Positions 19,783 through 53,121 of a stretch of 64,000 nucleotides of DNA are shown piece after piece. The notes beneath the pieces are model-generated. The model ran no database searches, was not told the origin of the DNA, and saw nothing but the letters and a program-made list of their open reading frames with translations. The DNA comes from a virus, in the IMG/VR virus record IMGVR_UViG_3300025652_000057, positions 1-64,000 of that record. One strand, written 5' to 3'. The position numbers were made by a program, and so were the translations under genes. The stretch's first letter is position 1. Each line of letters begins with the position of its first letter.

Positions 19783-20745
19783 TTAACTTTCGTCCTCTGT
19801 TCCATCTCCGTCTACTATCTGCACAATATACTCCCACTCTTCTCCGTTGGTTGGAACCGGAGTTACTTGAGAAAAGGATGGTATGGAATTACCATTCGCT
19901 GTGAATATGTCACCAAGTTTATATACGTTTCCTGTAAGGGATGATCCAGTAAGATATGTATTCCAATCGGCTTGAGTACTGGTTCCAAAATCATATATCT
20001 TGTATTGTTTACCAGATTCCAGTACAGTAGAACTAGCAGTTGCTGTCACAGGTATAGTCTCAACCTGAACAGTTATTTGCTCCCCACCCTCACTATCTAC
20101 TAGTGACGGATATAAGTCAACGTCAACAAACTTGATTCTCTTCTTCTCTGTCACTGGCCCATAGAAGAATGCCTTCATTGTAAAGTTCAGTGTCCAGACC
20201 AATGCTCGTCTTGTCTGAAAGTCTGATTCATAGGTGTCTTCTTGAGATACGCTATTCAGGACAATAGGAATATCAACATACTTGTTAATAGCATCTATCG
20301 TCTTAACACTTACGGTACAATCTGGCTTAAAGTACGGTAGTATCTGTTCAAGAATCTTCATACCATCTTCATTGTACTTTGTCATGATATTAAGTTGAAA
20401 CTCGATATCATATGGAGCAGGTGAAAACATAGTCTGTAGTGTGCCTGATGAAGTCGTTCCTGAGACCGTTTTATTCAAGCTACCTAGCTTTCTCTCTGCA
20501 CTGTATGTCATGCCACTAATTTCAAATGACATTCTAGGTAGAGTCATAGCAGGAGCATCTAAGTTGGGATCTTGCTCTAGTTTAGCGAGCATCTTCTGCA
20601 TGGGTGCATAGTTAATAGGCACGACCATCTTCTGTATTGCTGTGCCTGCGTTGTCCTTTCTAGTGATCTCTATGTCGTTAAACATCGTGCCAAAAACAGC
20701 AACATATCGTCTAGTAGATTCGTTATAAAAATGATTACCGTACAT
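19783..20745 (-). CDS. gp15: gp15 tail terminator / sheath stabiliser with C-terminal module insertion
   Basis: gp15 caps the tail and joins it to the neck. The 320-residue protein starts GNHFYNESTRRYVAVFGTMFNDIEI and contains LVWTLNFTMKAFFYGPV, both typical of T4-like gp15. From residue 248 on it carries one copy of the module seen in other structural proteins of this phage (YKIYDFGTSTQADW ... GDIFTANG), which explains the extra length over T4 (272). The ATG overlaps the gp14 stop (TAATG). Confidence 0.92.
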   Translation of the reverse strand: MYGNHFYNESTRRYVAVFGTMFNDIEITRKDNAGTAIQKMVVPINYAPMQKMLAKLEQDPNLDAPAMTLPRMSFEISGMTYSAERKLGSLNKTVSGTTSSGTLQTMFSPAPYDIEFQLNIMTKYNEDGMKILEQILPYFKPDCTVSVKTIDAINKYVDIPIVLNSVSQEDTYESDFQTRRALVWTLNFTMKAFFYGPVTEKKRIKFVDVDLYPSLVDSEGGEQITVQVETIPVTATASSTVLESGKQYKIYDFGTSTQADWNTYLTGSSLTGNVYKLGDIFTANGNSIPSFSQVTPVPTNGEEWEYIVQIVDGDGTEDES

Positions 20746-22241
20746 TAGAATGTATCCTCACCGAATGGATTACTTTGACTGAAGTCGATTATGTTGTCAG
20801 ATGCAACACCTGTATTCTTATCGATAAAGCTTTCGAGTGCTGTGTTGTCTGATAGCGCATCTCTCGACACAATAACTTTCGCTTCACCACCAGTGATTCT
20901 AATATCAGTTGCGCTGAATGTGGAGCCGACTGGTTGATAGTTACCAAGTGCTTCTAATGTCCCGAGGGCACTTTGTAGCATAGCGCCCCATAATTGAACT
21001 GAAGTTATATTCTCTGTTCCTGATGTATTCACTATAGATACTCTAGGTGTTGAGATGTTAGCGCCGAATGATGCCTGGACAGAAACTCTCTGCCATTCAC
21101 TAGACTGAGGAATGTCAACTTCTGCTCCTAGAGCATCGTTAGCGGAGTTATCGATACGTAGCTTCATGCCCGCTGTAGCACTCTTAACATATATTGATGC
21201 GGTGAAGTATCGACCGCTCGGAGATATGGATACTGCTTGACTCAACGAGCCAGAGTTTGTTGCTTGGAATGTATATGTATTAGCATTATTGCCACCGATT
21301 GGATCAACATTAATGGCTGAACCAGCTACGGATGTTTGTTGCCAAGTATTACTGGGTATTCCGTCTGCTAGTCTGCTGGTAAAGAATAGATCATTCTGTC
21401 TACTTGCTCCATTTAGTGCTTTGTACTCATATGTACCACTCGCTACCGGCGTAAACTTCTTCGTAGTCTGATTATATCCATTCGCTAAAGTTGTAGTGCC
21501 GTTGTTGTATATTCCCAACTCTACAGCACTATCCAAGTAAATGTGATTAGATGCGTGAGACTGATCGAATGTATATTCTATGCCCTCATTAAGCTCTAAT
21601 GTGTAAGCTGGTAATACGTCACCAGATGCACTAGACTGCTTGATATAGAATGCATATCCATCATTGACTTGAACCGTGAATGAGTTGTCTGCAACCACAA
21701 GACTCTCGAATATATTAACATTCTTGAACTCGTCATCGATGAACTTATGACCGGTGGAGAATCTTTCACCACTGAACTCGAATAACTCAGCACGAAGATC
21801 GTATGTTTGCAGTGATCCCATCTGATAGAAGATAGACTCATGCTCGACGTGCTGAATCTCGAATATCTTCTTGTTCAAAGGAAGATAGATCAGATCGCCC
21901 TCAAGCGGTCTGGTGTTTTCTTCGTTTGATCCGATCTCTGATTCATATGTTCTTTGAGCAATCGTCATTGTAATCGAGTCACGAATCTGAAGTCCAAACT
22001 TAGATAGGAAGTCTCCCTCACCTTCAAATCCATCAACACTCTTCACATACATTTCTGCCATGTACGCATCATTGAATGTCGAGATATCGTCTTCGTTGAG
22101 AATATCATCTTTTCCAACTAGGGTTCTAGGTATGTACCAAACGTCCATGCCGTAGATTCGAATCGACTCGATGACCAGGTCCTCGACGAGGTTTTGCTCC
22201 ATCGAGTTTTCAAAGTTCTCAAAATAATAATTTTTAGCCAC
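20745..22241 (-). CDS. gp14: gp14 neck protein with large beta-sandwich-like insert
   Basis: A neck protein that with gp13 closes the filled head. The ends (NMEQNLVEDLVIESIRIYGM, DLIYLPLNKKIFEIQHVEHE, and the C-terminal DNIIDFSQSNPFGEDTF) are typical gp14. At 498 residues it is about twice T4 gp14 (256): residues roughly 190-440 are an insert rich in Ser, Thr, Gly and aromatic residues, with segments such as RYFTASIYVKSATAGMKLRI and SSEWQRVSVQASFG that look like a carbohydrate-binding or jelly-roll module. The start codon is GTG, with AGGA eight bases upstream and the gp13 stop four bases before it. Confidence 0.92.
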   Translation of the reverse strand: MAKNYYFENFENSMEQNLVEDLVIESIRIYGMDVWYIPRTLVGKDDILNEDDISTFNDAYMAEMYVKSVDGFEGEGDFLSKFGLQIRDSITMTIAQRTYESEIGSNEENTRPLEGDLIYLPLNKKIFEIQHVEHESIFYQMGSLQTYDLRAELFEFSGERFSTGHKFIDDEFKNVNIFESLVVADNSFTVQVNDGYAFYIKQSSASGDVLPAYTLELNEGIEYTFDQSHASNHIYLDSAVELGIYNNGTTTLANGYNQTTKKFTPVASGTYEYKALNGASRQNDLFFTSRLADGIPSNTWQQTSVAGSAINVDPIGGNNANTYTFQATNSGSLSQAVSISPSGRYFTASIYVKSATAGMKLRIDNSANDALGAEVDIPQSSEWQRVSVQASFGANISTPRVSIVNTSGTENITSVQLWGAMLQSALGTLEALGNYQPVGSTFSATDIRITGGEAKVIVSRDALSDNTALESFIDKNTGVASDNIIDFSQSNPFGEDTF

Positions 22242-22245
22242 TTTT

Positions 22246-23244: not shown

Positions 23245-23275
23245 GTCTCTTTCCTAATTATAATATTGATTATAG

Positions 23276-23594: not shown

Positions 23595-24667
23595 TAGAAG
23601 TTCTCCACTGATCCGAAGATTTTTTGTATTTGTATATTCGAGCTTAACTGGCTATTTGGAGTTTCTTCCAGTTTCGTTCTAATCTGAATCTGTCTGGCTA
23701 ATGATGTTAGAGGTAGAGTTATATCGTAATGATGTTCAACGAATTCCTCTGTTGATATCGTTTGTGTGTATGCTCCATCTTGATTTTGTCCTAAGAAAGA
23801 TGAAAGAGTTGCTGATCTTGGCGTATTCTCGACAGTGACCAATGGCGATCCATTACCCGCTAAGAATGCAGAGTCACTATAATATATAGTGTCGCCAGAT
23901 ACAAACGTATTAGAGAAATCAAGATATGATATTATCGTCGTATCAGATCCTGCGTCATACCACACGGCATCTAAGGGAAACACTGTTGTTCCTGTGGCTG
24001 CTAGAGATATGCTGCCGTGCGGAGATATAAACTCTGTTTGATTGCCAGCAATGTTCGCTCTCTTTCCGAATGATGGAAAATATCCAGAGTCTGGATCTGC
24101 GTTTACGAGTGTAGTCACAAACTGTCTACTGGCCGTAGGGTTCGAAACATATCTGATCTGATCTCGTATCGTATATCTTGCAGTATTTCCGACACCGAGA
24201 GTACCAGTAACATTAACATAGAATCTTAGCGTTACTCTAACTCTTTGTCTTTTTGGGCCACCCTTTGGTGCAGGTATACCCAAGTACTGAAATGTAGATG
24301 TTCCGAAGCCTGTGTAGGTGCTTGTTAATGCTTTACCGCCACCAGGATAGTCTCCAAAACCGAACTCTCTCTTGAATGGATATATTTCAGGTGTTTGATT
24401 GTCTATTTTGTCGTCTAGTGAAGTTGCTGAGTTTTTCCAAGATGTTGTGGATAGATCATAGTAGAGATATGCGTCATCAACTGGACTAGTTATCGCAACA
24501 TTAGATAGGTTGCCTAGTGTGAAGTTAGCAGGATCTATCTGAAACTTTTCCACTACTAAACTGCCATCTGGATTCAGATTAGCGTTTAGATTCTGTGAGA
24601 AGCTACTGACAGAGACCGATAAAGAGTCATCGATGCTCAGGCTTGCTGTTAACTCTTCATCATTCAT
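23594..24667 (-). CDS. Putative fibre or virion structural protein
   Basis: A 357-residue protein without a recognisable enzymatic motif. Composition is that of a phage appendage protein: Ser/Thr/Asn-rich N-terminus (TASLSIDDSLSVSVSSFSQN), the sequence NFTLGNLSNVAI and VDDAYLYYDLSTTSWKNS, which resemble the short linker repeats common at the base of tail fibres, and a beta-rich C-terminus. It is coupled by TAATG overlaps to both neighbours. A role as a fibre or decoration protein is inference from context. Confidence 0.75.
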   Translation of the reverse strand: MNDEELTASLSIDDSLSVSVSSFSQNLNANLNPDGSLVVEKFQIDPANFTLGNLSNVAITSPVDDAYLYYDLSTTSWKNSATSLDDKIDNQTPEIYPFKREFGFGDYPGGGKALTSTYTGFGTSTFQYLGIPAPKGGPKRQRVRVTLRFYVNVTGTLGVGNTARYTIRDQIRYVSNPTASRQFVTTLVNADPDSGYFPSFGKRANIAGNQTEFISPHGSISLAATGTTVFPLDAVWYDAGSDTTIISYLDFSNTFVSGDTIYYSDSAFLAGNGSPLVTVENTPRSATLSSFLGQNQDGAYTQTISTEEFVEHHYDITLPLTSLARQIQIRTKLEETPNSQLSSNIQIQKIFGSVENF

Positions 24668-25041: not shown

Positions 25042-25066
25042 CTTTTTTCTCCAATAGATACTACAG

Positions 25067-25080
25067 TTATTTATAAATAA
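25067..25080. promoter_or_regulatory. Palindromic bidirectional late promoter
   Basis: TTATTTATAAATAA is a perfect inverted repeat that contains TATAAATA on the plus strand (25072-25079) and on the minus strand (25068-25075). The plus copy lies 36 bases before the ATG at 25115 and the minus copy 27 bases before the ATG at 25041, so two divergent late transcripts can start from one overlapping site. Confidence 0.85.
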
Positions 25081-25114
25081 TAGAACAACCCTATATGAAC
25101 TAATTGGAAGAATT

Positions 25115-27877
25115 ATGTCAACAACAAAGTACTTAAAATTTGGTGCAAGAGCAGACAAGAATCTATCTGATCTTTCAGATCCATCGGCTGCATTAGATAA
25201 CATACTTAACGATATATCTGCCCAGGTAGATAGTGACGGTAACCCTTTGGGATTCACATCATCAGATTTGTTTCCCTTAATAGGACTCGCAGAGACCGGA
25301 TTGGCTAATAATCTAACTGTATCCGGACAATCTTCGGAATTATTGAATCTTGCTGGAAATACTCTACGGGCTACCTCGACTAGCGGCACACTGATAGATG
25401 TTGAGCCTCGTGTGACTATTCAAGATTATATTACCAACTTTAAGACAATCCTTGGAGATCCGCCTTGGGTTGACGGCGGCACTGGTCCCGATGCTACATT
25501 CATTCCATCAGATAGATTAAATGCAAATACTACTGACAATGTAGGCAGCATTATAGCTTGTGATCCAGGCGACACCCAGGGTGGTGGCGCACAGGATTTA
25601 ACTGTAGGAAACAGATATAGAATAGAAGTGCTGGCGAACATTAACCAAAACGGGTGGAACGATATAGCTGGTACTACTAATGTGACATACGCTATAGGCA
25701 GCATATTCACTTGTGCGGTCACTGTTTCTGATGCTGTTGGTGATGGAAATCACAACGCTGCGGCGTGTAGAAATGTCACATTGCCTAATGGTAACTCGGG
25801 CACAGCAAACGCAAATGCTCTAACCTCGAATCAGTTGTTCACCACAAAGGTAGACGCTTCACTAACTTCGATAGTGGGTCCTGAGGAATTCTGGACAAAC
25901 GGAAAATTCAACCTATCTGGAAAGATTCATCCAAGCTTCACTAACACTTTTGGTGGAATTCAGTGGACAGGATATCTGAGCGGGCAATGGGATATACAGG
26001 TCGAGTCTACAGGTTTCTATATTATAGAAGAGGATCGGGTAGACGACGGAAGTGAGAATAACTGGTCCCTATTGAAAGCTGTTACCACAGAGACTATTAA
26101 GACGTTTAGCGAAATCAAGTGGACACTGAGCGACCAAAATACTCTAATCGAATTTACCGATGAAGATGATTATAAGAGGGTTTGTAATGGAATGGATATC
26201 GTTATAAATGATATACGGGCTGAGGTGACACGAGTCTATAGGACTTCTAATGGTGATGGAACGTTCACTTACTATGCGGAGTTAGATCAGGACGTAGGCA
26301 CCGAAGACACTAGCGGATCGATCCAAACTTTTGAGTATGATCTATTCGATGAGAGAATTAACTCAGAGATTTTTTACTTCACCAGAACTGCTTTATCTGA
26401 AAGGAGAAGAGTTAGAATTAGTACATATTGGCCTAGTTTGGGACAAGGTCTACAGTATCCCAGTAAGCTGTTCTCAGATATAGGGGGAGGCGAGAGTCTA
26501 GGATTTCAGTATTTTTATAAAAATGATGGCTCAACTGATGTATATGGCAAATACAGTTTTCCATACTTTAATGAAAATAGAGCGAATATATTAAAGCAAG
26601 AGTCCGGCGCAAAGTTGACTGTTGATGATGTGTTATCTCTTGAGTACACTCCAAGTCAAAATACCCAAGATGTTATAACTGGTTATAACACAGCAAGTGA
26701 TACCGTGCCGGCAGACGATGTTAAGTTGGTTGAGGATGGTGTTCTAGATGATGTACTAGACGGCAGCACGTTTAGTGGATCACAAAAGGGCGACTGGATT
26801 GTTGCTGTTCCTGCGTTTACCACAAACTGGGCAAATGCGGCATCGAAGGCATATGCGTTTCAGATAGAATACCTTCCTGCTGGCAGTAAAGCTTACGTCT
26901 CAAAGAATTATGGCACATTAATGGGCTTAGCTCTTGAACAAACACACTATCTAATACTGGTAAAAAATCGTGGACTAATAGGTATCTATAAGAAAGATGC
27001 TCCTACAGCCACTAATGAGTGTCTGCTTCGTAAACTAGACACTGGAACTGGCGCAATGGACAAGGATACGTCTCTAGTTTCTGTGGGCGATCTGGTCCAT
27101 ACTGTCACGTTTACGGGAGCGGCGGGCAGCCTACCAGCACATAATTATCCACTCAAAGTGAATTCGATAAGTTCTACTAGTACACAGGCTTCAGTTGTCG
27201 TAGCCGTTCATCCCAAAGATAGTGCGGATATGATATCTGGCGATGGTATTGCGATTGTGTATGCCTCTAGAGGACTGAACGACATATCTGCTAAAAGTGA
27301 GTGTGAGGGCGCATATGGACTAGAGGTTAATGTAGCCTCTCCGATAGCGACACCACAGAAAATATATGTTAGCGATATTAGCCGAGGTGCCGATATGGTT
27401 AATGATGTCGCATACTATGTTGGTTCGAATTCGGCTTCACCCGTGATAGACCAATCTTCGAATAATTCCTCTACGAATGCTACACTCGTGACTGGTTCTG
27501 GCACCGATGCTACTGGTACATATATAACTCTTGATAGAAATATAACTGCACCGATTGAGACGGGAACCACTGTAGTTCTTATGTCTGATACAAACGCTGG
27601 TAAATATAAGAATAGAGAGTATTGTATTATTCCATTAAACACTGCTCCTCCTTGGACAAGTACAAGTGAAGGTCTAGCTACTCCTAGTGGAAACCCAGAT
27701 TTGATTACAGAGGGTCTAATATTTCGAGAACTGGGCGCTGATGTGGCTACATCTAATGTGGTAAGTCTAGCTACTAATCCATTCAGTGATCCGAATTCTG
27801 TTTCAGATAAGTATGTTCCTATAACATTTAACGGAAATACTTATAAGATTCTGGTCAATGATAATACATTAACTTAA
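25115..27877 (+). CDS. Large virion/fibre protein, the only plus-strand gene
   Basis: A 920-residue protein starting MSTTKYLKFGARADKNLSDL with GGAAGA upstream of the ATG. The N-terminal motif (ADKNLSDLSDPSAALDNIL, residues 13-31) is of the kind found at the base of phage fibres and resembles the N-termini of the genes at 29291 and 27874. Near residue 165 is one copy of the dispersed aromatic/glycine module (YRIEVLANINQNGW ... GSIFTC). The rest is beta-rich with no enzymatic motif. It is divergent from the neck operon and convergent with the next fibre gene, whose stop overlaps its own. Expression is expected to be late. Receptor binding is plausible but not shown. Confidence 0.88.
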   Translation: MSTTKYLKFGARADKNLSDLSDPSAALDNILNDISAQVDSDGNPLGFTSSDLFPLIGLAETGLANNLTVSGQSSELLNLAGNTLRATSTSGTLIDVEPRVTIQDYITNFKTILGDPPWVDGGTGPDATFIPSDRLNANTTDNVGSIIACDPGDTQGGGAQDLTVGNRYRIEVLANINQNGWNDIAGTTNVTYAIGSIFTCAVTVSDAVGDGNHNAAACRNVTLPNGNSGTANANALTSNQLFTTKVDASLTSIVGPEEFWTNGKFNLSGKIHPSFTNTFGGIQWTGYLSGQWDIQVESTGFYIIEEDRVDDGSENNWSLLKAVTTETIKTFSEIKWTLSDQNTLIEFTDEDDYKRVCNGMDIVINDIRAEVTRVYRTSNGDGTFTYYAELDQDVGTEDTSGSIQTFEYDLFDERINSEIFYFTRTALSERRRVRISTYWPSLGQGLQYPSKLFSDIGGGESLGFQYFYKNDGSTDVYGKYSFPYFNENRANILKQESGAKLTVDDVLSLEYTPSQNTQDVITGYNTASDTVPADDVKLVEDGVLDDVLDGSTFSGSQKGDWIVAVPAFTTNWANAASKAYAFQIEYLPAGSKAYVSKNYGTLMGLALEQTHYLILVKNRGLIGIYKKDAPTATNECLLRKLDTGTGAMDKDTSLVSVGDLVHTVTFTGAAGSLPAHNYPLKVNSISSTSTQASVVVAVHPKDSADMISGDGIAIVYASRGLNDISAKSECEGAYGLEVNVASPIATPQKIYVSDISRGADMVNDVAYYVGSNSASPVIDQSSNNSSTNATLVTGSGTDATGTYITLDRNITAPIETGTTVVLMSDTNAGKYKNREYCIIPLNTAPPWTSTSEGLATPSGNPDLITEGLIFRELGADVATSNVVSLATNPFSDPNSVSDKYVPITFNGNTYKILVNDNTLT

Positions 27878-29280
27878 TCTTTAACTAGTAAGTAGAACTG
27901 TTCTCCGTTAACTAGTATGGGTAACTTATGTGTATACGTGGGATTCGACTCACTTACTACTAGATCGACAATATCAAGAGTTGCTGCTCCGTCCGTTTTA
28001 ATTAGGACAGGGGTTGCGCCAGTAGAGCTGATTGTGAGTTTAGATATCTGAGCATTATTTGATGTTGTTCTTAGTGCGGCAGAACCGGTTATACTATCTC
28101 CAGCAGCAACTTCCTCCCAAGGATTATCAGATCCAGAGAACGCTCGAACTTCCTGACCAGTTGCGCCGTTTAATATGAATAGTCCTGGCGGATTAACAGC
28201 TTTTACAGTACCAGAGCCTATACCAGATATAGCAGTACCGTCTGCTTGTGTAGTTGCTCCGTTGGCAGTGAAGATTTCTCCTACTGCGGGTGAAGCGTCT
28301 GCTCCAATGTGAGTCCAGTCAGCATCAATAGTGTCGCCTTTGTCAATTATCTTGTACTGCTCATTAGTGACTAGTGCGGTGGTTATCGTTCTAGGATAAC
28401 CTACCTCTAGATTATTGCTGTTTGTTATACTAACTTGACCTTTAATCCTAACAGGTTCAGTGAATGCACTGTCTAAGTATGTTAGAGGAACACGAGTTTT
28501 CTTGAAGGCAATCTTGGATATTATATTTGATATATATGCAGTTTGCTCAAACGTATCATATCCATTATCGACGACATCATCGGTGCCATCAACACTCTCA
28601 GGACTAACTAGTCCACCACCACCACTGTCGTCTGTTAGCAACAGCACTGGATTTAAGTTTTTTAAATTGTCAATGCTAACTACATCGTCTCTAGTTAGCG
28701 ATACGTTTGAGATGGTAGCAACACTAGCTAGATTAACAACATTGTTGCTCGAATCGAGCAACTGAAATCGGTCTAAGGCATTAGAGTTAGATACTATGTA
28801 TGGATAAGTGGTACCCTCGTCTATAGATATTGCTGTGCCGTTAGCGTACCCTACTTTATTTTGTCCTATGACAACTATGGTGTGTCCATCAACCGGATCG
28901 TCAATATTCTGAAAGTCTACTTGTGGCTGAATCTCTGTAGCCACACCATCAGTGCCCGTACTAATATCACCTTGGCCAGTCGCCTGAAACACCTCTCCTA
29001 CTGCGGGTGAAGCGTCTGCGCCTATTCCCGTCCAGTTTCTAGATGTTCCTAGATCAAATATCTTATAAGACTTAGTGGACACAAATGATCCGAATGCGGT
29101 ATTTGTAGCGGCAAGGGCGTTTGGATCATTCGCTAGTTCACTCTTAAAGTTGCCGTTTCCGTCAAACAACAGAATATCTTGGTGAATATTAGTTCCACCA
29201 AGATTGTCCAATATACTTCTGTCAGAAGATGCAGAGCCACTCTCTACTAAATTTAAGTTTTTGACAAAGCCTTGTGCCAT
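27874..29280 (-). CDS. Modular virion/fibre protein with two copies of the dispersed module
   Basis: A 468-residue protein. The N-terminus contains SDRSILDNLGG, a short fibre-base motif. Two copies of the aromatic/glycine module follow, at residues 70-116 (YKIFDLGTSRNWTGIGADAS) and about 305-360 (YKIIDKGDTIDADWTHIGA), sharing a 26-base exact DNA identity (28277-28302 and 28994-29019), evidence of recent internal duplication. The C-terminus is beta-rich (THKLPILVNGEQFYLLVKD). No enzyme motif. AAGGAAA precedes the ATG. It ends tail-to-tail with the plus-strand gene. Confidence 0.85.
   Translation of the reverse strand: MAQGFVKNLNLVESGSASSDRSILDNLGGTNIHQDILLFDGNGNFKSELANDPNALAATNTAFGSFVSTKSYKIFDLGTSRNWTGIGADASPAVGEVFQATGQGDISTGTDGVATEIQPQVDFQNIDDPVDGHTIVVIGQNKVGYANGTAISIDEGTTYPYIVSNSNALDRFQLLDSSNNVVNLASVATISNVSLTRDDVVSIDNLKNLNPVLLLTDDSGGGGLVSPESVDGTDDVVDNGYDTFEQTAYISNIISKIAFKKTRVPLTYLDSAFTEPVRIKGQVSITNSNNLEVGYPRTITTALVTNEQYKIIDKGDTIDADWTHIGADASPAVGEIFTANGATTQADGTAISGIGSGTVKAVNPPGLFILNGATGQEVRAFSGSDNPWEEVAAGDSITGSAALRTTSNNAQISKLTISSTGATPVLIKTDGAATLDIVDLVVSESNPTYTHKLPILVNGEQFYLLVKD
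28277..28302 (-). repeat. 26-base direct repeat, downstream copy
   Basis: Exact copy of 28994-29019 within the same gene, coding the GADASPAVGE core of the dispersed module. Perfect DNA identity between module copies that differ elsewhere points to gene conversion or recent duplication. Confidence 0.85.
28994..29019 (-). repeat. 26-base direct repeat, upstream copy
   Basis: Exact copy of 28277-28302; codes the GADASPAVGE core of the first module copy. Confidence 0.85.
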
Positions 29281-29290: not shown

Positions 29291-32200
29291 TTAGTCTAAA
29301 AGTATTGTCCAGCCGTTTGATCTGAGAGCGGCTAGCTTGTTTGAGGATGAAGCTATGCCATCTGTGTCGTCATCATCTACAGCAGCTTGAGATAATGTAT
29401 CTAAGCCATCTGAGCGGCTCTGTCCCAAGAAATTCAATGTTACGCCACCTCTAGGTCTAGCTTGGTAGTTTTCATATAGATCGTATATCAACTCTGTTGC
29501 AGTCGAGGCACGAAGATTGTTATTGCTGAAGTCTAAATCCCTCATTACTAAACAGTATCTAAGAGAGCCTGCGCTATATCCATTTAATTTATTATTTTGC
29601 ATTCTCAGGTTTTTCAGCGATGGCGTATTAGAGAAATCTGGAATTAATTCGCTGAATTCATTATCGTTTAGCCATAACGTTTGAAGCTTGGGCAATTCCT
29701 GCGCAGGAAATTGACCGCTAAATGAATTAACATTCATCTTTATTGTCTTAAGCTTTGGATGAGTAAGTATGGGGAATGTCCCCGTTAGACCTCTACTCAA
29801 AATTCTGTCTTTTGCGTATGGCATAACCTCAGCGCCTGAGTTAGAGCCACCTATAACAGCAGCGGCGTTGGCAGTAAAGGTTCTGCCTGGATATATGCTA
29901 GGACTGCCATTCATTATGGCATGCCATTCAGACTCAGTGTGTGTGCCTACCTTTCTTATCATATATCTCTTACTAGCGTCGAGCTGTACTGTTTTAGGAT
30001 TGATGGCTTGTGCAACAAACGAATCTCCCACTGTAGGATTCGCACCGTGATTTACACCTGTTATTGGATCAGTTCCCCCGTCTACCCAACCAATTTGTTC
30101 CCACTGAAGTTTGGATGCTGTATTAGTGGTAGCGTCTCCATAAAGGCTTATTATAGTGTATGTCTGCTCTGCCTGTACCCATATTAAATCCTTTAATCTA
30201 GCGTTCTCTCTGAGGTCTAAGTATTCGAGTTTTTGATTGGCAGCAAAATCAGGTAAAGTGCCTCTGAGATCGTTAGCCGCTAGATATATCTGTTTGAGAT
30301 TTTTACAGTTAGTTAGGTTTAAATTATAGTCAGCGTTCGTAGGATGAACAATAGTTCCAGATGATCTCCAATGCTGGTATGAATATAGATACTGTAGTCT
30401 TTGAGAGTTTGCGAAAGCCTGTCCTCGATGATTTACGGCACCACTAGTAGAGAAAATGTCATTACCGTATAATTCCTTATCACTTCCTGCGTTCAAATAA
30501 TGTGTTAAATTGTTAGACCCTAAGAATATATCATCTTGTATTGTTCCACGGACGCCATAGCCCCATCTAATGTCGATAAAATATAAGTTTGCCTTTCCTT
30601 GAAACATTCCATTAGTTTTAAAGTTGCCCCTCATATTTCTAGGGTTATACAAATTGAAGTATTCTAGAGAGGTACATCCATCAAACTTGCCGTCTATGGT
30701 CCTCTCGGCGGTTTGCCATCTACTGTCGGTTGAGTTGTGCTTCTGAGAATATCTCTTTAGATTTATCTTATTTGACATATCTATAACATTATGATATCCG
30801 TATTCTGATTGGAATTCGGTGATGTTGGAGCTTCTGAATGCTGGTATGGCCATATCAGTCGAGCTTTTCACTTTAGTGGCAGTATTCGTACCATCGTAAT
30901 TAGGATACTCTGAGTTAGTGAATGTGCCGTTCTGTCTAATATCAACATACGTTGTGTTTGGACTTCTATATACACCAGGCGACAGACCAGAGAATGGTTG
31001 TCGGTAAGTAGAGTAATATGATATGCCGTCAGTGCCATAATATTCGAGATTGCCGTCTACATCACATTTAACGAACGAGTGTCCTCCTACACTAGATCCA
31101 CTTGTAGACATTGTGACTGCGGCAGTATCTTCTTTATTTAGAACATTGACTATGTTACTTGACCCATCTCCAATCTTTTCGAATATGTAGACCTCTCCGT
31201 CTGTTAAGCCAGTTACGCCAGCGCCAAGTCTTGGGTAGAGATCAACTCTCTGATTATATTTGACGTAGATTTTAGTAGAACTTAACGATGAAGTCCCACC
31301 ATCGAACCAAATGTCTACATACCCTGAAGGTAGTGTCGCCAGAGATATTGTTGTGACTGAGCCGCTTACCGGCCATAGATCGGTTACACTTCTTAGACCA
31401 GTGTTCGCTTCTAAAGGATCATATGTCTGCGGAGATATCTTCGAACCGAGCATAGCTCTGACGAGGTCTCTTTGATATGTGGCGCCCATAGAGAGGTCAC
31501 GAAGAGCCTTATAATCTTTTAAATTCACAGGTGTGGCATCCCTAAAACATCCGTTAGCGAATATAGTTGTCATGGTTGTCGGAAGTCTGTTTAGCTGTGC
31601 CGATGCCGTACTTGCTGAGAGCGCCGATGATTCTGTGAATCCGTTTGTGCCTTCTATGTATTGTGCCGCTCTAGTTAAGCCTAAGTTGTTTCCTGTGATC
31701 GAAATCTCTTCTAGTGCTGTAGCAAGACCTGCGCCACCAGCGTAACCAGACTTTGCTACTGTAGCGTCACTTCTAAATTCTGGCATAATAGAGAAGTCGT
31801 TGCCCTCTATATTTAAAATCTTTAGTGCGGGTAAGCTTATGTTAGTCCAATCTATTAAATTGGTATTCTCTACATCTAGTCTCTGAACCTTAGATGGATC
31901 GTAGAAAAATTCAAGTCTTCTAGGCTTAGATGACGTGTCTCTGTATGCATAGATTGCGGGATTAGTTTCTGTTCCGATGCCTATGTTGCCCGGATTCGCA
32001 GCCGTGCCGTCACCAGAATTATACGATAAATCACTTCCGTCAGTATTCGTGATTCTCCATGTTATAGGGACTAAGCCTGCGGAGTCACTGACTCCTCCAG
32101 GCGTAATGACTGCGCCAAGATCAACATCTCTAAAATATGCATTCCATGTTATCGGTATGCCTTTCATTGCTAAGAATTGGTGTGTGTTTGTAGCATCAGC

Positions 32201-36384: not shown

Positions 36385-36387
36385 AAA

Positions 36388-40731: not shown

Positions 40732-43719
40732 CTATTTAATGAGCCCTTGAGCCATTACGAAGTCGTCTATTATATTTATAGTGCCGTATGATGCTGGTGT
40801 GCCTGAAGCATTGCCTGGAGTAACACCAGCACCAGCATCACCTGAACCGCCTTTCCAATACTTGATTTCTAGTATCTTATTATCGCCACTGTCGGCTATG
40901 TTAGCTATTTGTCCATAATTAATGGCACTACCTAAAGCGAAAGTGCCGTGTCCATCAATTCTAATAACGTGACCAATAGCTAGAGGCACATTTAAAGAAG
41001 ACGGTGTTACAGTTACAGTATATGTAGGGTTTGTTGTATCTGTTGCATCCCAAGTGCCCGATGCGATTATTGAACCCGCATTAGCGTAACCTCTATAATT
41101 CGCTGTCCACGCTACGCCGACATGAGCAGAGCCAGCAGGATGATTCCCTGCTGTTATTTGCCCAGCGTACAGTGTCGCAAGCTGACCCTTAGAGTATATT
41201 CCACTAGTCAGATTTGTCCAGCTCGCAGTACTGCCTTCAGTGTCGTTTATCTCAAACTTAAATTGACCTAATGCTCTATTCATGCCTGAATCAATATCTT
41301 TAATGTAAATAGGCTTATTAGCACTATATCCAACAAACTCGTCGGGAGTTGCTGTGCCTGTGGTACCTGTCACAGCAACATTGTTCTTAACAAATGATGT
41401 GCCTACGTTGGCGTTAGGTGCACCAATTGCTGTCCAGTTTGTATCGCCTGGAGCGATTATTCTATATCGTTTACCTTGTATGAATCCATCATTAGCGATT
41501 GTCGACCAGTTAACTCCGTCAATGCCCTTTGCGCCTGCGCCAACTAGATTGCCGTATACTTCTTCATCTCCGTTAGAGAGCTTCCTTATTAATTTTACTC
41601 TATACTCAATCGTTGCCGGCTGAGCTTCTATGCTAGTTTGAGCCAGATTGAAAGCTGCGCCGTTTTCTTGATATACGTGCGCAGAGCTACCATATGGCGC
41701 AGTCGATTCGGCTATGCCTAGATTTATATTGATTGAATCGTACTCACTATTCAAGATGTCTGGACTAGATAGATACTCGTTAGCCGCACCGATCAATACG
41801 TTAGGAGAAGATACTAAGAATGATGATCCGTAAGTGAATATGCCAGCGCCACATGCCTTAACCACGTTATTTGCTATAACGCCTTGAGCTGTTACAGAAG
41901 CATCAACAGAGTCTGTGAAATTTTGAAATCTATTACCAGTAATGAGTGTGCTTGTTCCATTATCTACAATTAGAGGAGAGAATGACCATCTGTCTGTCAC
42001 GCCGCTATTTACAACTTCACTTGTAGTTAGTTTAAACTCAACAGGAGACGATGCGTAAACGCCACCGCCAATTATATTTTTAACTCTACACATATCCAAA
42101 AGAATCGACGATGGATTTAATCCAAAATCTAGTGCATAGTTTATAGTAACGTCTTCATCATCGTTATGTAAGAATTGACTTTTTATATTGCCGTCCATAT
42201 CTATGCCTACAAGAGATATTGCCGTTGCATTAGATGTTACTGTAGACCTAATGATCGAATTATCTGGCTCGTTAACAGCGTAAGACGCCCATGGCAGCTT
42301 CTTAATCTGTGTGATGTTAGCTGTTCCTATAAGACCAAAGTTACTGGGTACTGCGATATGAGATACGTTATACGTCTTAGCGTTCAACTCTACACTCTTT
42401 CTACCCTGTGTCGCCTTCGTCACAATAGCTTCATTTATCTTGTTTGTGTCGTTGTGTGCTACTTGAGCACCGCCAGAAGTGTCCACATAAACGTATGCTG
42501 TGTCGAAGTTTAAGTCGAAAGATGTAGCCTGACTGCTTATGCTAGATATAGTCACATCAGTCCAACCTCTAAGTGCGCCAGTGTGTACAGTTACAGGAAA
42601 GTGTGTGGTGCTAATGTACGTATTGTCGGTAGAGTTTTTTCCAGACCAACTAGTGTAGTCGAATGTGTGATAGTCTTTCCAAGCGACTAATAAATCTTTA
42701 GATCCCAATACGGCCAGTAGCTTAAACCCACCTGCACCTGCAACCTGTCTATACACCAAAATACCTTGGCTTCCTGATTGCCCTGTGAGTGCAAGACTGA
42801 TAAAATTATTAGTATTGAATTCGCCCAACACATCATTGCCTTCATTATATACTGTTACAGATGATGTGGCTGATGGTGGGCCTACTTCGCCTGTCTGAAG
42901 ATTAAAGAGTGCTACTCTATATTCAAAAAGTTTAGAATTTGTACCTGCGGCAGCCGTGAATCCGCCCCCATTCGAAACTGTCAGCGTTAATCCGGGCGAG
43001 GTTGTTATGTTATTGGCAGTGTTTGCCGATGCGCCATATATTCTTATCAGTTGGCCAGCTGAGAAGTTAGCTTCTACATTTTTATCTGATATTCTCAGAA
43101 CATTCGATTGATTGTCAGCAATGTTTTGAAATGTTCCTAGAACATCTTGCAAGCTATCTCGAACTTCACCGCCATCAAATGTGCTACTGTATGTGTTGAA
43201 CAGGTTACCAAAATTCAGGGCTTGTCTATCGTCAACTCGCTGATCTTGGTAGAATAGATTAACAGCGCCTTCATTCACATAATCGGATGTCATTACCTGT
43301 GTTGTCGATCCAGTGCCAGATACCACCATTTTTGGTGGGTTGGCAGTACTATCATGTGATACGAGATTGCCGTCGTTAGTGAATCCTTCTACAGTGCCGA
43401 ATGTAGAAGTATTTGTAGGTATCGTAGGCTTATTAGTCAGGTTCGAATAGTTTAAAAAGTATTCTCCTGGCTGATATGCGTCAGTGATCCACAATCGTTG
43501 AGCACCAAGATTATTACCGAGGGTGGGATTTATGAGATTAATCTTATCAACTATAGTGGCAGCTTTTGACGCTACGTTAACATCGGATAGAATAAAGTTA
43601 GTAACATTAGAAGCGACTATGTGCTTAGATGTGGTGGCGTCACTGTCCGTGACGGCGAACAAATCCGCATCCGCCAGGGCATCTAATTCCGGTAAATCTG
43701 TAAACTTCTTATTCGACAT
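40732..43719 (-). CDS. Beta-helix tail fibre / tailspike-like protein
   Basis: A 995-residue protein. The N-terminus (KKFTDLPELDALADADLFAV) is the short motif found at the base of many phage fibres. Residues about 420-640 read like a right-handed parallel beta-helix of the pectin-lyase fold: TNKINEAIVTKATQG, then SVELNAKTYNVSHIAVPSN, then FGLIGTANITQI and repeated strand-turn units (ISLVGIDMDGN, VITGNRFQNF, VIANNVVKACGAGIF). One dispersed module lies near residue 750 (YRIIAPGDTNWTAIGAPNA). A polysaccharide-binding or depolymerising role is possible; no catalytic residues can be assigned. A late promoter lies 31 bases upstream. Confidence 0.85.
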   Translation of the reverse strand: MSNKKFTDLPELDALADADLFAVTDSDATTSKHIVASNVTNFILSDVNVASKAATIVDKINLINPTLGNNLGAQRLWITDAYQPGEYFLNYSNLTNKPTIPTNTSTFGTVEGFTNDGNLVSHDSTANPPKMVVSGTGSTTQVMTSDYVNEGAVNLFYQDQRVDDRQALNFGNLFNTYSSTFDGGEVRDSLQDVLGTFQNIADNQSNVLRISDKNVEANFSAGQLIRIYGASANTANNITTSPGLTLTVSNGGGFTAAAGTNSKLFEYRVALFNLQTGEVGPPSATSSVTVYNEGNDVLGEFNTNNFISLALTGQSGSQGILVYRQVAGAGGFKLLAVLGSKDLLVAWKDYHTFDYTSWSGKNSTDNTYISTTHFPVTVHTGALRGWTDVTISSISSQATSFDLNFDTAYVYVDTSGGAQVAHNDTNKINEAIVTKATQGRKSVELNAKTYNVSHIAVPSNFGLIGTANITQIKKLPWASYAVNEPDNSIIRSTVTSNATAISLVGIDMDGNIKSQFLHNDDEDVTINYALDFGLNPSSILLDMCRVKNIIGGGVYASSPVEFKLTTSEVVNSGVTDRWSFSPLIVDNGTSTLITGNRFQNFTDSVDASVTAQGVIANNVVKACGAGIFTYGSSFLVSSPNVLIGAANEYLSSPDILNSEYDSININLGIAESTAPYGSSAHVYQENGAAFNLAQTSIEAQPATIEYRVKLIRKLSNGDEEVYGNLVGAGAKGIDGVNWSTIANDGFIQGKRYRIIAPGDTNWTAIGAPNANVGTSFVKNNVAVTGTTGTATPDEFVGYSANKPIYIKDIDSGMNRALGQFKFEINDTEGSTASWTNLTSGIYSKGQLATLYAGQITAGNHPAGSAHVGVAWTANYRGYANAGSIIASGTWDATDTTNPTYTVTVTPSSLNVPLAIGHVIRIDGHGTFALGSAINYGQIANIADSGDNKILEIKYWKGGSGDAGAGVTPGNASGTPASYGTINIIDDFVMAQGLIK

Positions 43720-45718: not shown

Positions 45719-48700
45719 GTTAACGCAATTGCTCGATAGTCGTATATGTGCGCAAACAAGTTGATATCAGGAGTTAACGTACCTAGCTCTGGCGTATCTA
45801 GCTCATTGCCTGATCCTGTAGTGCCGTGTCTCAAAACAAACTTTAATTGGAAAGACCTGAAAGAAGTGGTCTCATTGGTTAAATTGTATTCGAACTCTCT
45901 ATAGTCTTTAGTATTACTCGTGTTAGAGTATAGATCAGGATTAGCATTGTCGAGTTCAATCCAAGCACTCTTAGTCTCTATGTTTTCAGGATACACAAAT
46001 CTCGCATATACATCAACGAATGTTCCTGCAGGTCGATACGCTGATACTAACGCCTTCATTCCGTCAGCTTCAAGCCCGGCCTTCAACACTACTTCTTTTG
46101 ATATCCAACTAGAAGTGGATGACGCAGAATTTGTGATGTGATACTCGTAAGCGTTGATTTCAGATAGAGATTTATCGACGATAGGAGTAGCTGAAGAGTA
46201 GCTATTGTTTGCCATAGAGACTCTTACCTTGAAGTCTTCTGTGGTAGTATCTGCGGCATTCACTATACGACTCTTACTCATAATTGATCTTAAGCTATTA
46301 TGGGTGTACGTGTTAGCGTTCTTAGATATAGACTTATCTATCGTGTTTCCGTTATAGAGTGTCAGGTCGCTAGAAGTGTTCGTAGTGTCGCTAGTGTAAA
46401 TTTGTGCCTGAAAATATGAAATCTTCTTATTGTTTACGCTAGTGACTATAGCCGTGGCTCCACTATCTATTCCTTTTATCACTTGACTATTTTTTCTGGC
46501 AGTACCGTCACCTGGTGTACCAGCAATTAATGCTACGAATACTTGTCCGAGATAAGGAGAAGATCCTGCGCCAGCATCAGTCCAGTTTTGTTGTGTTGTG
46601 GATGATCCCAAGCTAGTAATCGTATAAGTCTGCTGAGGCGTGAACGCTCCGATAGTCGAGACTGCATTATCATCAATGAAGTTGGTTGGCGTAGCAGAAC
46701 TGCCTTTAATGTGTAACTCATCAGCTTTTCTGGAATTGTAGTGTGATACTCTACCCGCTACACAAACAAACGCAACAGCAGTAGTTGTAGCTTCAAAGAA
46801 AGGCGTGTCTAATGTTATTGTAGTCGATGCAGCAGTCGTCTGTAGATCCAGGATCTTAGCGACAATATCGTTTGTAGCTGTGCTATCTTGAAGGTACATA
46901 TAGTCGCCTACAGCGAATATCGTAGTGCCAGATATAGTCACAATATTCAATTGATCGCCAGATATGCCTGCTGTGTAAGAATCAGCCTTCTTAATATATG
47001 CATATTCGTCATCTATAAACGATAGTATATTCTCACGAACTGTCATAAACTCCATATCATTAGGTACTAAATCTATAGTACCAGATGCGTTGAAGTCATA
47101 CCTTTTCAATATAAATTTAATGTCTTCATCTTGATATGATTTCCAAGCACTATCGTTTGTTGATGTAAATAATACCCCATCACCCCAGTCATTAGTAACA
47201 GCAACTTGCGATGCCGCAGTTCCTTTAGATAGGCTAGTAGATCCAACTTTAGAAGTATAGATGAGATAGTCTGGAGAGTTAGCGTCTGGTATAACTACAA
47301 ATGCGTACTCGGCATTTGCACTCAATCTGACTGGATTGTCAAAGGTAAATGTCGTTGCAGTAATTCCATTAGGAGATATAAGAACTTGAGATGCATCTAG
47401 ATGCTTAGATGCAAACGGAAGAACTTTCTTCGATGGATATCCATTGACAACTTCTCTTATCTGTAGAGTCACACCAGTAGTGGCACTCTTCTGCTTGAAG
47501 TAAACGTCTATATCACTGATCATAGCAACATTTGCGTTATTGGTGCTAGATGACTTCACTCGGAAAGTCTGAGCAATAGGATCACCCACTTGTCGCTGAG
47601 TTTCTCTAGTTGTGATGCTAACTGAGGTGTCGAAGTCTGGAGTTCTGGTGGTAACGCTCAAGTCGGTCTTGTTTACAGCGAAGTTATATCCTCTGTAAGT
47701 TGCTCTGCTGTAAGACGTTGATGCAGAGTCTATAGAGCCATATGTGTCCACATCGACCACCTCTAAAACATTCTCTCCAACAAAGAATGTGCTTGCTGGT
47801 AGTACGAATACTGCACTTAGTACTCCGTTGCTATCAGTTCTTACTGCCTCTCCTGCATTTGATGCTAAGTATCCCACTCGTCTAACGTCTAGGTTAGAGC
47901 TATTTTGCCTACCGTATGTAATTCCCGTGCCAGGTGACACATGAGAATCGACAGACTTCTGATCAAAGAAAAAGTAATGTCTAGTGTTTGGTCTTAATCC
48001 AGTTACTAGAACTTTAATTTGTTGTCTTCTCAGATACGGCTTCATGTTTATATCTGTAATGAAGTTGCCTACCTCTTGATTGAGGGAGCTTGTAGAACTC
48101 GCAAGACGAGTTTGGCTGATGGTCTGGGTAAACTCTCCCATTATAACTCTACGTCTTGGTCGATTTGTTCCAGTACGCTCTTCGCCTATTATAGCCTCTG
48201 TGGTAAGAGGCATAAACTCTTGAAGATTGTCCACAAGATCCAACATAGGACCAGCGATATCTATTTCAATATTTACAGCAGGATTCTGAATCACATCATA
48301 CCCAGATGTGAACGGAGGATCGATAACTGCTTTACCCTCAAAGCTGTAGAAGTTTGATACACAGTTTCTAAAGTTTGTTGCGTACGGCTGTGAGATAACC
48401 TCTACCTTAGTGCCGGTGTCTGCTAGTGTTATGACATCCGGAAACGCAGTATTCACTCCACTGCCACTTCCTACTTTTAAGTCTACTGGAAACTGTGTTA
48501 CTGCAGGAGTAGCTACGGTTCTACCATTATCAATTGCAGCTCTAAATTCTGGATCTCGAATATCTGCAATATTTAAGTCACGAATAGAGTCTGCTAGAAT
48601 ACCGTTCTTGAATCTATTCAAGCCGTTGCCATCTCTAATTTCAAGATTGCTAGTTTCTTTCTCAAGTAGACTCAATGAAACTATGTCGATCAAGCCGTCT

Positions 48701-51108: not shown

Positions 51109-51126
51109 GGGCTATATTCTCTTTCC

Positions 51127-53121
51127 TTAAAAGTCGAATGTGAACTTTACTTTTTCTATTGTGCTTGCATACCTTGGAATAGGAGCAAAGTCTATGAAGT
51201 GTAGTAGTTCTCCACTATACGGGTCATAGTCTCCGTATTCAATAGTATTTATACTGATCGTAGTGGCGTTGGATGAAGATGGGGTACTTTTTATTCTTAT
51301 ATTTCCTATCTGTACCTTACTCTCAAAGTCTCCATAATAGTCTACTAGATAAATTTTTGTGTTAGTTGTTCCATCGTACACACTATCATGCACTTTAGCC
51401 GTTATAATCTCTTCTTCTTCATCGGCCGATATAGTATCAACAGCATAAGAAACTTTGCCGATTTTATCTAGACCCACCGCAGGAGTCGATACAGATACAA
51501 ATGTTGTTCCCAGAGTAGCAGAGATAGTGCCAATCCCTAGAGCATCCCATTCGCTATTCGATAAGTTACCAACGTCAGTGATGACATAATTCTGACCACC
51601 AACAATATCTTTAACATCTATTGTTCTGATATATTGCTCGAACACAGTATCAGCAGGAGCTTCGGATGTCTTGTCACCCGATACTGTCAAGACTACACGG
51701 TTATCAAACGACTCTGGAATAGTGGAAGCTCCTGTATTGTCAGTAAACGTAGGATTCTTGATTAGTCCTACTTGAGTGTATGTGTTACTATTAGGAATAG
51801 ATTCAGACTCTCCGGAAAAGTTGGTTACGATAGATAGTCTACTCATAGCCATCTCGTCGATAGGATTAGAGCCGTGGCCGCCTCTAGGAGAAACTATAGC
51901 ACGTAAAATCGTTACGCCGGGTGTGGTCAGACTTTTAGGATAGATAACCTTTGCAGAAGCAAATTTATATTCAGTACCCTTAGTCTCAAATGCGACCCTA
52001 GTAAGTGTTCCGAACTGATCTATAACGCCGTAAGCTTTAGCTCTAGTTCCGCTTAATGTACTAGAACTAACTTCTATCTTAGGCACTAGTTGAGCTAGGC
52101 CTTGCTCGAAATTGTCAGTACCTTTTACAACAACACTTATCTCTTTTGATGAGTCGTTTGTTTTAGAGGATATAACGTCATAAAGTTTACCTGCTGTTTC
52201 GCCTGTGCCCGACCTGAAGTACATATATTTGTATGCATCGAGGTCTTGATATAAACTTCTACCGAGTTTGTCAGTAACACCCAACACTAAAGTCGTCGTG
52301 TTTTCTGTGACACTAGTACTCTTAAGAAGAACATTAGACGAATTCGCTTGGCTGTCTGCTTCGCCAAATAGATATTGGTTAAACAGTCCAGTAGGAGTAC
52401 TATTAATAATAATCTGAGATATATTCTCTCGGGCATTAGCGATGACATTTACGTCACCGTTTGTAGTAGGTAGGGGCAAGCTGTCCACATTTCTATATAC
52501 GGCTACCTCGTCGGAGCTTACTGTGAACATATATTGCCAAATATATTTATCTTCAGTCTCAACAGATTGATAGTTGGTTGTAGTGAATTGGACAATAACA
52601 GACTGTGGACTAACGGTAGACTCAGACCCATTATTATTTTCTATACACTTGAATACTAAATAGTCGCCTTCTGTGTTACGTATCGTGACTATCATGTTTA
52701 AGTTTTCGATATTCGCCGTATCGTCGAACGAGTCATATTTCGTTCCTGTAGTCCAATCGTTTTCGTAAAACATATATCTTGCGGATGATTCTTCAATCTT
52801 ATTGCCGAATATAACCTTTCTCTGAAAGCTTCTCTTAGATGTCTGCGTGTTTGTTATTGATGGCACTCCATCTATTGATGGTAGAGCGGTGGACGCCATA
52901 ATATAGTAGTTTGCTTCAGGTCTCAATAGAGTGAGCTGATCGTCTACCATAGTCTTTATAACGGTCTCGTTTTCAGACGACAGACCCAGAGACTGTTGAT
53001 TGTCATATGCCTGAAGCTGATTCAAGAAATTTGCGCCCAGAGTACTATTCTGATTCTTAAATGACCTGAACAACTCATTGGTCGTCTCAATCTTAAAATT
53101 TTCTGTAATTACCTTTGCCAT
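51127..53121 (-). CDS. gp8: gp8 baseplate wedge protein
   Basis: A wedge component located at the baseplate periphery. The 664 residues are about twice T4 gp8 (334). The N-terminal part (FRSFKNQNSTLGANFLNQL, ANYYIMASTALPSIDG, ARYMFYENDWTTGTKYDSFDD and DEDKYIWQYMFTVSS-like DKYIWQYMFTVSSDEV) is diagnostic for gp8 of marine T4-like phages. The C-terminal part carries one dispersed module (YVITDVGNLSNSEWDALG). It precedes the giant DUF4815-type gene. A variant late promoter lies just upstream. Confidence 0.9.
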   Translation of the reverse strand: MAKVITENFKIETTNELFRSFKNQNSTLGANFLNQLQAYDNQQSLGLSSENETVIKTMVDDQLTLLRPEANYYIMASTALPSIDGVPSITNTQTSKRSFQRKVIFGNKIEESSARYMFYENDWTTGTKYDSFDDTANIENLNMIVTIRNTEGDYLVFKCIENNNGSESTVSPQSVIVQFTTTNYQSVETEDKYIWQYMFTVSSDEVAVYRNVDSLPLPTTNGDVNVIANARENISQIIINSTPTGLFNQYLFGEADSQANSSNVLLKSTSVTENTTTLVLGVTDKLGRSLYQDLDAYKYMYFRSGTGETAGKLYDVISSKTNDSSKEISVVVKGTDNFEQGLAQLVPKIEVSSSTLSGTRAKAYGVIDQFGTLTRVAFETKGTEYKFASAKVIYPKSLTTPGVTILRAIVSPRGGHGSNPIDEMAMSRLSIVTNFSGESESIPNSNTYTQVGLIKNPTFTDNTGASTIPESFDNRVVLTVSGDKTSEAPADTVFEQYIRTIDVKDIVGGQNYVITDVGNLSNSEWDALGIGTISATLGTTFVSVSTPAVGLDKIGKVSYAVDTISADEEEEIITAKVHDSVYDGTTNTKIYLVDYYGDFESKVQIGNIRIKSTPSSSNATTISINTIEYGDYDPYSGELLHFIDFAPIPRYASTIEKVKFTFDF

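Follow-up and report, generated by a model that had tools for sequence, protein, structure and literature searches.

Short aromatic and glycine-rich segments recur in otherwise unrelated proteins of an IMG/VR virus record (IMGVR_UViG_3300025652_000057, 66,623 bases), which raises the question whether they are copies of one domain and what such a domain would contribute to a phage particle. Positions 1 to 64,000 of this record, the stretch that was analysed, are referred to as the window. The record carries a T4-like structural gene cluster in which Pfam and PHROG profiles identified a gp15 tail terminator, a gp14 neck protein, a gp8 baseplate wedge protein, a DUF4815 protein and other baseplate proteins; the long open reading frames (ORFs) of the window lie on the minus strand, with the exception of gene 25115. 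A preliminary description had reported nine segments in seven genes, following a pattern that begins Y-x-I-x-x-x-G, and had proposed a portable, surface-exposed domain of virion proteins. All nine copies of this module were confirmed where they had been reported, and they belong to one domain family (Table 1). The description of the carriers as virion proteins holds for gp15 and gp8, which fall into named virion families; the other five may be virion proteins, judging from their position. Among these, 45715 is the DUF4815 protein and 29291 contains leucine-rich repeats (LRRs), and no convincing Pfam or PHROG family was found for 25115, 27874 and 40732.

When the 40 translated window proteins were searched with a strict regular expression of the pattern, 6 matches were obtained in six genes, whereas 300 residue shuffles averaged 0.003 matches and never gave more than 1. 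Three copies depart from the pattern as written: the one at the first position of 27874 ends in F-Q, the first copy of 29291 has long spacers, and the 25115 copy has no first glycine. A loosened expression was abandoned in favour of a profile, as it gave 14 matches, where shuffles averaged 5.5 and reached 13, and still missed 25115. A profile built from the nine copies united them all, the next window protein being 43776 (whole-protein E 0.11, domain E 1). In leave-one-out profiles, seven of the nine copies were recovered at E ≤ 5.4e-6; the remaining pair, in 25115 and the first position of 29291, scored weakly, the latter as a 15-residue partial match only (Table 1), and the best matches in copy-free proteins ranged from E 0.16 to 2.7. 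Searches of 11,238 reversed and 11,238 shuffled ORFs with the nine-copy and enlarged profiles produced nothing below E 0.43. When the profile was enlarged with canonical copies from elsewhere (see below), eight of the nine window copies were found at E < 1e-3 and the first 29291 copy was lost. Copies resembling the weak pair were found in related loci with the nine-copy profile, which includes the window's own copies: 25115-like copies in similarly placed genes of five loci (E 2.7e-15 to 2.9e-7) and a 29291-like first copy in locus L009 (E 3.5e-4), the genes being matched by placement. Overall, 17 of the 19 records searched contained at least one match and two contained none; the records of the window's relatives L009, L014, L022, L029 and L025 had 8, 11, 7, 9 and 9 matches, respectively.

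The family extends well beyond these relatives. Iteration over 62 related gp15 loci and the window yielded 79 distinct segments, near-copies included. Canonical copies, of the form GSFVvGxxYtIxxvGtTDFTxIGAxxNtVGxxFTATGxGxGTGTA (∼45 residues), were collected from IMG/VR by means of two short DNA patterns, for TDWTxIGA and TDFTxIGA; likeness in the central motif among them is therefore a product of selection and carries no weight as evidence. The nearly invariant residues are Y, I, G, W/F, F and a later G. The first pattern scan gave 36 loci and the second at least 120. The module was found at E below 1e-3 in 20 of the 36 loci and in 115 of 120 loci listed from the second scan, comprising 76 of 80 used in iteration and 39 of 40 that lay outside profile building. 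Without iteration, the nine-copy profile detected canonical copies in 72 of the 120 (43/80 and 29/40), so that the link between window and canonical copies is independent of iteration. One frame of 4,254 residues contains 8 copies. In one further locus, residues 538–560 of L097 match the pattern without a module match at the threshold used, and run on into a second glycine-rich motif, GSLVAGRYISG. We take this motif to be of a kind that occurs in other phage proteins. The L097 segment is possibly a distant relative of the module.

The family is undescribed as well as large. Thirty-six members compared with Pfam, PHROG and NCBIfam gave no convincing match (best E 0.0083, 0.0088 and 0.058, respectively), nor did four canonical copies compared with Pfam and PHROGs, for which the listed Pfam matches lay under the curated cut-off. 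The weak Pfam matches of the members (BRCA2 OB2 in 3 of 36, YjbE, NfeD and others) were set aside, as they were inconsistent between copies and under the cut-off where shown. A sequence search of PDB with the profile returned chance matches only (E 0.46 and above), tblastn with a window copy against phage records returned no match, and one canonical copy had no match among plasmids. A literature search that stopped short of subscription papers and preprints found no description of this domain, which is not proof of absence. The near absence of the module from deposited phage genomes may explain why a curated family is missing. When one canonical copy was used in a single-sequence tblastn search of deposited phages, the matching records were cyanophage S-TIM54 and two Caudoviricetes assemblies of spring origin; the S-TIM54 copy lies at residues 461–502 of a 1,334-residue protein annotated as virion structural (UYE97271.1).

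To examine the carriers, modules were masked and the remaining sequences were clustered by BLASTP with single linkage. The 213 copies lie in 164 host proteins that fall into 40 groups unrelated outside the module, and some copies are 84–89% identical although their host proteins have no other detected similarity. The same domain thus occurs in unrelated structural-cluster proteins, both across the seven window genes and across the 40 groups. A family scan covered 74 of 97 phage host ORFs, the other 23 being left out for length. Most of the hosts that could be named are proteins of tail, fibre, baseplate or connector. PHROG names, which come from the first 25 of 96 families, include virion structural protein, tail fibre, central tail fibre J, tail, tail spike, baseplate wedge, head closure and tail appendage. 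Pfam domains in the hosts include Mtd_N (3 members), collagen, LRR, pectate-lyase, beta-helix, SU10 adaptor and others. As a separate observation, Mtd_N is the domain of the major tropism determinant, and its occurrences are in 3 of the 74 module-bearing proteins (host ORFs within L064–L186).

The structure of an isolated copy, the first of 27874, was predicted with AlphaFold2 from an alignment with 69 other sequences. A confident fold was obtained (pLDDT 92.9, pTM 0.78), the 64-residue model containing four strands of at least 3 residues and a short helical turn. This model suggests an autonomously folding, beta-rich unit of ∼45–50 residues. Foldseek against PDB found nothing below E 2.9, an absence that excludes no family. 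Against predicted viral proteins, 13 matches were obtained at probability ≥ 0.97, the best at E 2.7e-3 (TMq 0.80, 30% identity) and none reaching E 0.001; one of these similar folds is named Tip attachment protein J. In VIA-align, 8 of 156 chains reached Z ≥ 2 (best 2.6), with cyclic-nucleotide-binding and E1-type proteins among the seven shown; these were read as noise and exclude no fold family.

In gp15 the module lies on a C-terminal tail. The core of a predicted gp15 structure (28 sequences) matches T4 gp15 (PDB 9mkb and 4huh, Foldseek E 2.6e-15 and 7.1e-13). Blocks over residues 241–300 have pLDDT values of 71–84, and the flanking stretches have values of 40–58 (residues 201–240) and 37–38 (residues 301–320). 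In the 28-row set of homologues, the module is absent from L040, L041, L043, L044, L049, L054 and four distant proteins. L036 has two modules, and L037, whose contig cuts off the 3′ end, has the first. The first site is occupied in L036 and L037 and empty in L025 and L038, with 96% of the core shared between L025 and L036; the module is thus dispensable at a fixed site among close relatives. On a tree of gp15 cores, two changes are needed at each module site; in this comparison L038 was counted as module-bearing at its second site on the strength of the iterated profile (1e-6). Taken together, the single profile, the confident predicted fold, the unrelated host proteins and the presence or absence at fixed gp15 sites strongly support the proposal of a portable domain.

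Two other carriers were compared with their homologues. In gp8 the module is present at all 11 close homologue loci (7 distinct proteins), and it was absent from all 5 homologues examined from named phages (best E 0.043). For 45715, all 13 homologue loci at ≥ 42% identity that reach the site have the module; homologues at ≤ 40% identity show none, but the alignment extends to the site in few of these. The module positions in gp8 and 45715 are kept across relatives at 42–87% identity.

We asked how the module diverges relative to its carriers. Among 17 gp15 sequences, module identity was below core identity in 136 of 136 pairs, with medians of 47% vs. 75%. In gp8 the module falls among the least conserved 0–8% of windows along the protein in six pairs (formed by the window's protein and ORFs starting at 1483 or 1486), and in 45715 among the lowest 1–29% in 15 pairs. 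For gp15, dN/dS was 0.035–0.15 in the core and 0.17–0.82 in the module in 14 of 15 pairs; these were the pairs computable for both parts among 22 of 136 printed, and many dS values exceed 1 and are near saturation. The pattern argues that the module is under selection, although looser than that on the core. The pair L014/L021 showed the sharpest contrast. Core identity is 99% (dN 0.008, dS 0.117) and module identity 61% (dN 0.318, dS 0.84). DNA identity along the gene is 0.88–1.0, drops to 0.63–0.65 only at nucleotides 721–840 and returns to 0.95–0.98 just after; two segments are replaced there and the stretch between them is kept. Because dS is high, recombinational replacement is suggested over point mutation, although 44 codons make a noisy estimate. 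A DNA repeat in the two modules of 27874 (Table 1) is consistent with exchange between these copies, and a third similar stretch (63%) lies in the 45715 module. Otherwise, the window copies showed almost no DNA relationship (0.52 vs. 0.50 for shuffles, eight of nine compared), and for the window the idea of a recent DNA insertion element was considered and dropped.

The module is not confined to phages. A genome scan confirmed at least 15 bacterial loci, all in metagenome-type assemblies; the family scan covered the host ORFs of 6 of 15, and some contigs may be phage DNA. Three hosts (L241, L238 and L232), from metagenome-assembled genomes (MAGs) of Rhodoferax and Polaromonas, are PilY1 proteins. 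L241 has a PilY1 beta-propeller profile match at 910–1282 and matches the solved PilY1 structure 3hx6 at E 2.6e-55 over residues 881–1423; most of the length of L238 and of L232 can be aligned to L241, at 64% and 49%, respectively. A DDSGSM stretch upstream of the L241 modules presumably represents the metal site of a von Willebrand factor A (vWA) domain. Modules number 4 in L241, all upstream of the propeller, 3 in L238 and 2 in L232, and some correspond to gaps of about module length in orthologues. As the copies vary as insertions, the module is no fixed part of PilY1. The accessible part of one report describes PilY1 as a pilus-tip-associated adhesin and places a vWA domain at the pilus tip in Pseudomonas (PMC8806160). 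Other bacterial hosts are an FG-GAP protein (Planctomycetia MAG), an fn3/GEVED protein (Flavobacteriaceae MAG) and, in a Nomurabacteria MAG, a tail-fibre-like S74 protein encoded next to a phosphoglycerate mutase gene. In the 15 bacterial genomes all 35 matches fall within stop-free open frames, of 183 to 9,861 residues, and each genome has between 1 and 7 of them. L242 and the genomes G024 and G031 have frames of 7,298 to 9,861 residues, each carrying from one to several modules, which apparently encode giant surface proteins of bacteria that have not been cultured.

Table 1. Module copies and associated features of the window (positions are those of the window)
Feature	Position	Strand	Evidence
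gp15, T4-like tail terminator / sheath stabiliser, one module on C-terminal tail	19783..20745	−	PF16724 1.6e-74; phrog_227
Module copy, gp15 residues 244–297	19855..20016	−	Strict pattern; leave-one-out E 9.3e-10; separate block in gp15 model
Module copy, gene 25115 residues 163–216, weak	25601..25762	+	Leave-one-out E 0.0096; nine-copy profile E 1.3e-20, itself included
First module copy, gene 27874 residues 67–114	28939..29082	−	Leave-one-out E 1.9e-10; isolated fold predicted
Second module copy, gene 27874 residues 304–358	28207..28371	−	Strict pattern; leave-one-out E 1.1e-12
43-nucleotide DNA repeat, two modules of gene 27874	28277..28319 and 28994..29036	−	86% identical, 26 nucleotides in a row identical
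First module copy, gene 29291 (LRR protein) residues 869–925, divergent, long spacers	30005..30175	−	Nine-copy profile E 6.4e-12, itself included; leave-one-out E 0.039
Second module copy, gene 29291 residues 935–987, LRR array after	29819..29977	−	Strict pattern; leave-one-out E 2.1e-6
Module copy, gene 40732 residues 747–792, near canonical form	41344..41481	−	Strict pattern; leave-one-out E 5.4e-6
Module copy, gene 45715 (DUF4815 protein beside gp8) residues 1490–1540	46489..46641	−	Strict pattern; leave-one-out E 5.1e-10
Module copy, gp8 (baseplate wedge) residues 507–560	51442..51603	−	Strict pattern; leave-one-out E 3.4e-7

The preliminary description had also noted that the module sometimes interrupts another repeat. 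This fits gene 29291, where both copies (869–987) stand directly before Pfam leucine-rich repeats at 1008–1089 and residues ∼821–866 contain, as judged by eye, the same repeat as the array. Three further features of the cluster were recorded. A 240-residue ORF at 24667–25389 (−) overlaps gene 25115 on the opposite strand; the gene behind it probably starts near 25044 (125 amino acids; matches to phrog_1084 and an L-shaped tail fibre assembly PHROG). Gene 43776 contains a 97-nucleotide direct repeat (44610–44706 and 44862–44958, 92% identical). gp14 (20745–22241, −) extends ∼300 residues past its Pfam neck-protein match (4–174), phrog_460 covers the whole protein, and a search of it for the module found none.

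That phages and bacteria alike have an autonomous, exchangeable domain in proteins related to attachment argues for an accessory attachment domain as the best explanation, one that would function like the immunoglobulin (Ig)-like domains or carbohydrate-binding modules (CBMs) of phages, with a match to neither, and we consider this reading somewhat better than an even proposition. On this reading the module, found mainly in uncultivated tailed phages, has entered many unrelated virion proteins, either within the chain or close to its end, and now and then bacterial surface proteins. Each copy might bind weakly to some component of the host surface or of the matrix around it, and copies distributed over tail terminator, baseplate and fibres could provide avidity, or could keep a particle close to its host until the main receptor-binding proteins have engaged. 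The fold would depend on the core residues (Y, I, G, W/F, G, F), with two variable loops between them, so that exchange of loops or whole modules could change contact specificity without disturbing the carrier protein. A broader version, in which one 45-residue scaffold serves as a shared adhesive currency for many kinds of phage and for bacterial pilus-tip and giant surface proteins, and in which relatives exchange its two variable loops on a fixed framework and so renew specificity piecemeal across half a dozen virion proteins, is speculative and rather doubtful.

The proposed exposure on the surface is supported indirectly, by the separate block in the gp15 model, the tail, fibre and baseplate names, the PilY1, FG-GAP and fn3/GEVED proteins, and low conservation in three proteins. 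It has a known exception: 2 of the 74 phage host proteins match phrog_511, a family whose name is internal virion protein; unless the name is mistaken, these matches are hard to square with attachment at the surface. This and several other observations count against an attachment role or limit this reading. The L231 host ORF from the bacterial scan matches the same PHROG and is probably phage. The nearly invariant residues look like fold residues and not like a binding site. The module is rare in deposited phages, with 3 of 50,697 records matched by one canonical copy and one of these cultured, and in bacterial genomes, where at E 1e-8 it turned up in 2 of 298 further genomes from one family and in 1 of 287 further genomes from one phylum; this rarity indicates that it is dispensable for most. 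The whole gp15 model is moderate (pLDDT 69.8, pTM 0.51), second-site copies are weak with the nine-copy profile (E 0.17 in L038, 0.0052 in L036, 0.0037 in L024), and 4 of 24 inner branches of the gp15 tree are well supported, with long branches meeting; the second-site module may accordingly have had a single origin. Divergence confined to the module within the gene was found in one of the four gp15 pairs compared; in the other three it spans the whole C-terminal tail, from nucleotides ∼601–661 to 960, and L014/L021 itself shows a further dip to 0.62 at nucleotides 1261–1320, beyond the gp15 end. A module dN/dS above that of the core also fits relaxed constraint, and in L036/L038 it reaches 1.57, at 23% identity and with a doubtful alignment.

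Some of these points suit a module that has no ligand and that spaces, stiffens or cross-links virion subunits as decoration or cement domains do. The fold-like invariant residues, the copies in connector and baseplate proteins and the two hosts with an internal virion protein name would all fit such a structural filler, and the accessible text of PMC10276861 offers a precedent, an Ig-like domain on the adaptor of marine phage R4C judged unlikely to act in adsorption, with attachment domains that are said to contact the capsid. However, one would not expect a subunit interface to be less conserved than most of gp15, gp8 and 45715, and the gp15 module lies between low-confidence stretches and is missing from relatives. 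Its presence in bacterial PilY1, FG-GAP and fn3 proteins also counts against this explanation, which we regard as unlikely while giving it serious weight. An insertion that spreads in frame or by recombination, and is tolerated as a self-folding passenger useless to the virion, would be comparable to the Rickettsia palindromic elements. This would account for in-frame presence or absence in gp15 and PilY1, for the many unrelated hosts, for the 26 identical nucleotides common to the 27874 modules and for the raised dN/dS, including the value above 1 in the doubtfully aligned pair. We nevertheless find it improbable, given the stop-free frames of all 35 bacterial matches, the DNA likeness of window copies hardly above shuffles, dN/dS below 1 in 14 of the 15 computable pairs, and the positions kept in gp8 and 45715.

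Two further explanations concern the identity of the family. The module might belong to a known phage adhesion family (Ig-like Big_2, I-set or FN3, CBM or BACON) and have diverged too far for profiles and the fold search to detect it; the habits are the same, in that such domains are small, scattered through virion proteins and exchanged between phages, as far as the accessible parts of PMC10276861, PMC10684548 and PMC6669499 describe them. The 36 members gave no convincing PHROG, Pfam or NCBIfam match, the 64-residue model has only four strands of at least 3 residues, and nothing in PDB came below Foldseek E 2.9, although that excludes nothing; we hold this to be decidedly improbable. Convergence of low-complexity Gly/Thr/aromatic stretches, so that there would be no single family, is suggested by the three copies that miss the literal pattern and the two that are weak in leave-one-out profiles. 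It is already largely refuted and has next to no chance of being correct, as reversed and shuffled controls gave nothing below E 0.43, 39 of 40 loci were found in a set unused for profile building, and the confident predicted fold recurs in viral models.

If the accessory attachment reading is correct, a frequent unnamed domain of uncultivated phages would gain an identity and a testable role. The module would mark outward-facing virion proteins and offer a small scaffold for ligand screening, and its profile would annotate parts of many proteins now called hypothetical. Virion decoration would reach a third, apparently unrelated family beyond Ig-like domains and CBMs, and phage particles would be linked to type IV pilus tips through one common domain.

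The Ig-like fold is a seven-to-nine-strand beta sandwich of ∼80–100 residues. Ig-like domains of tailed phages (Big_2, I-set and FN3) were reportedly described by Fraser et al. in 2006. In the accessible text of PMC10276861, they occur in many structural proteins of tailed phages, possibly through horizontal transfer, with proposed roles in adsorption or infectivity, although one near the phage head was judged unlikely to act in adsorption. The module is likewise small and present in many structural proteins of tailed phages; unlike Ig-like domains, it appears to be shorter and, in the predicted model, to have fewer strands, and it also occurs in PilY1; the 36 members and 4 canonical copies had only unrelated matches in Pfam-A, with no Ig-type profile among them. 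In 936 lactococcal siphophages, CBMs are reported on the neck passage structure, the major tail protein and Dit, two of them binding the host (PMC6669499, as accessible). There too several virion proteins carry accessory modules; two of those in the 936 phages bound their hosts, whereas the present module has no CBM family match in Pfam (36 members, 4 canonical copies) or below E 2.9 in the Foldseek comparison with PDB, which excludes no family, and its attachment role is proposed by us. The tandem BACON repeats of crAss-like phages are described in the accessible text of PMC6949934 as a repeated, proposed carbohydrate-binding domain of a phage protein. Several module copies in one protein resemble this arrangement, and Pfam scans of the window proteins, the 36 members and the 4 canonical copies gave no BACON match. 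The three PilY1 proteins of Rhodoferax and Polaromonas carry the module, but as copies that vary between orthologues. Domain exchange has been reported for receptor-binding and baseplate proteins of phages, according to the accessible part of PMC10684548. Pfam scans gave the module no match to the Ig-like, CBM or BACON families, and its likeness to them would be one of function.

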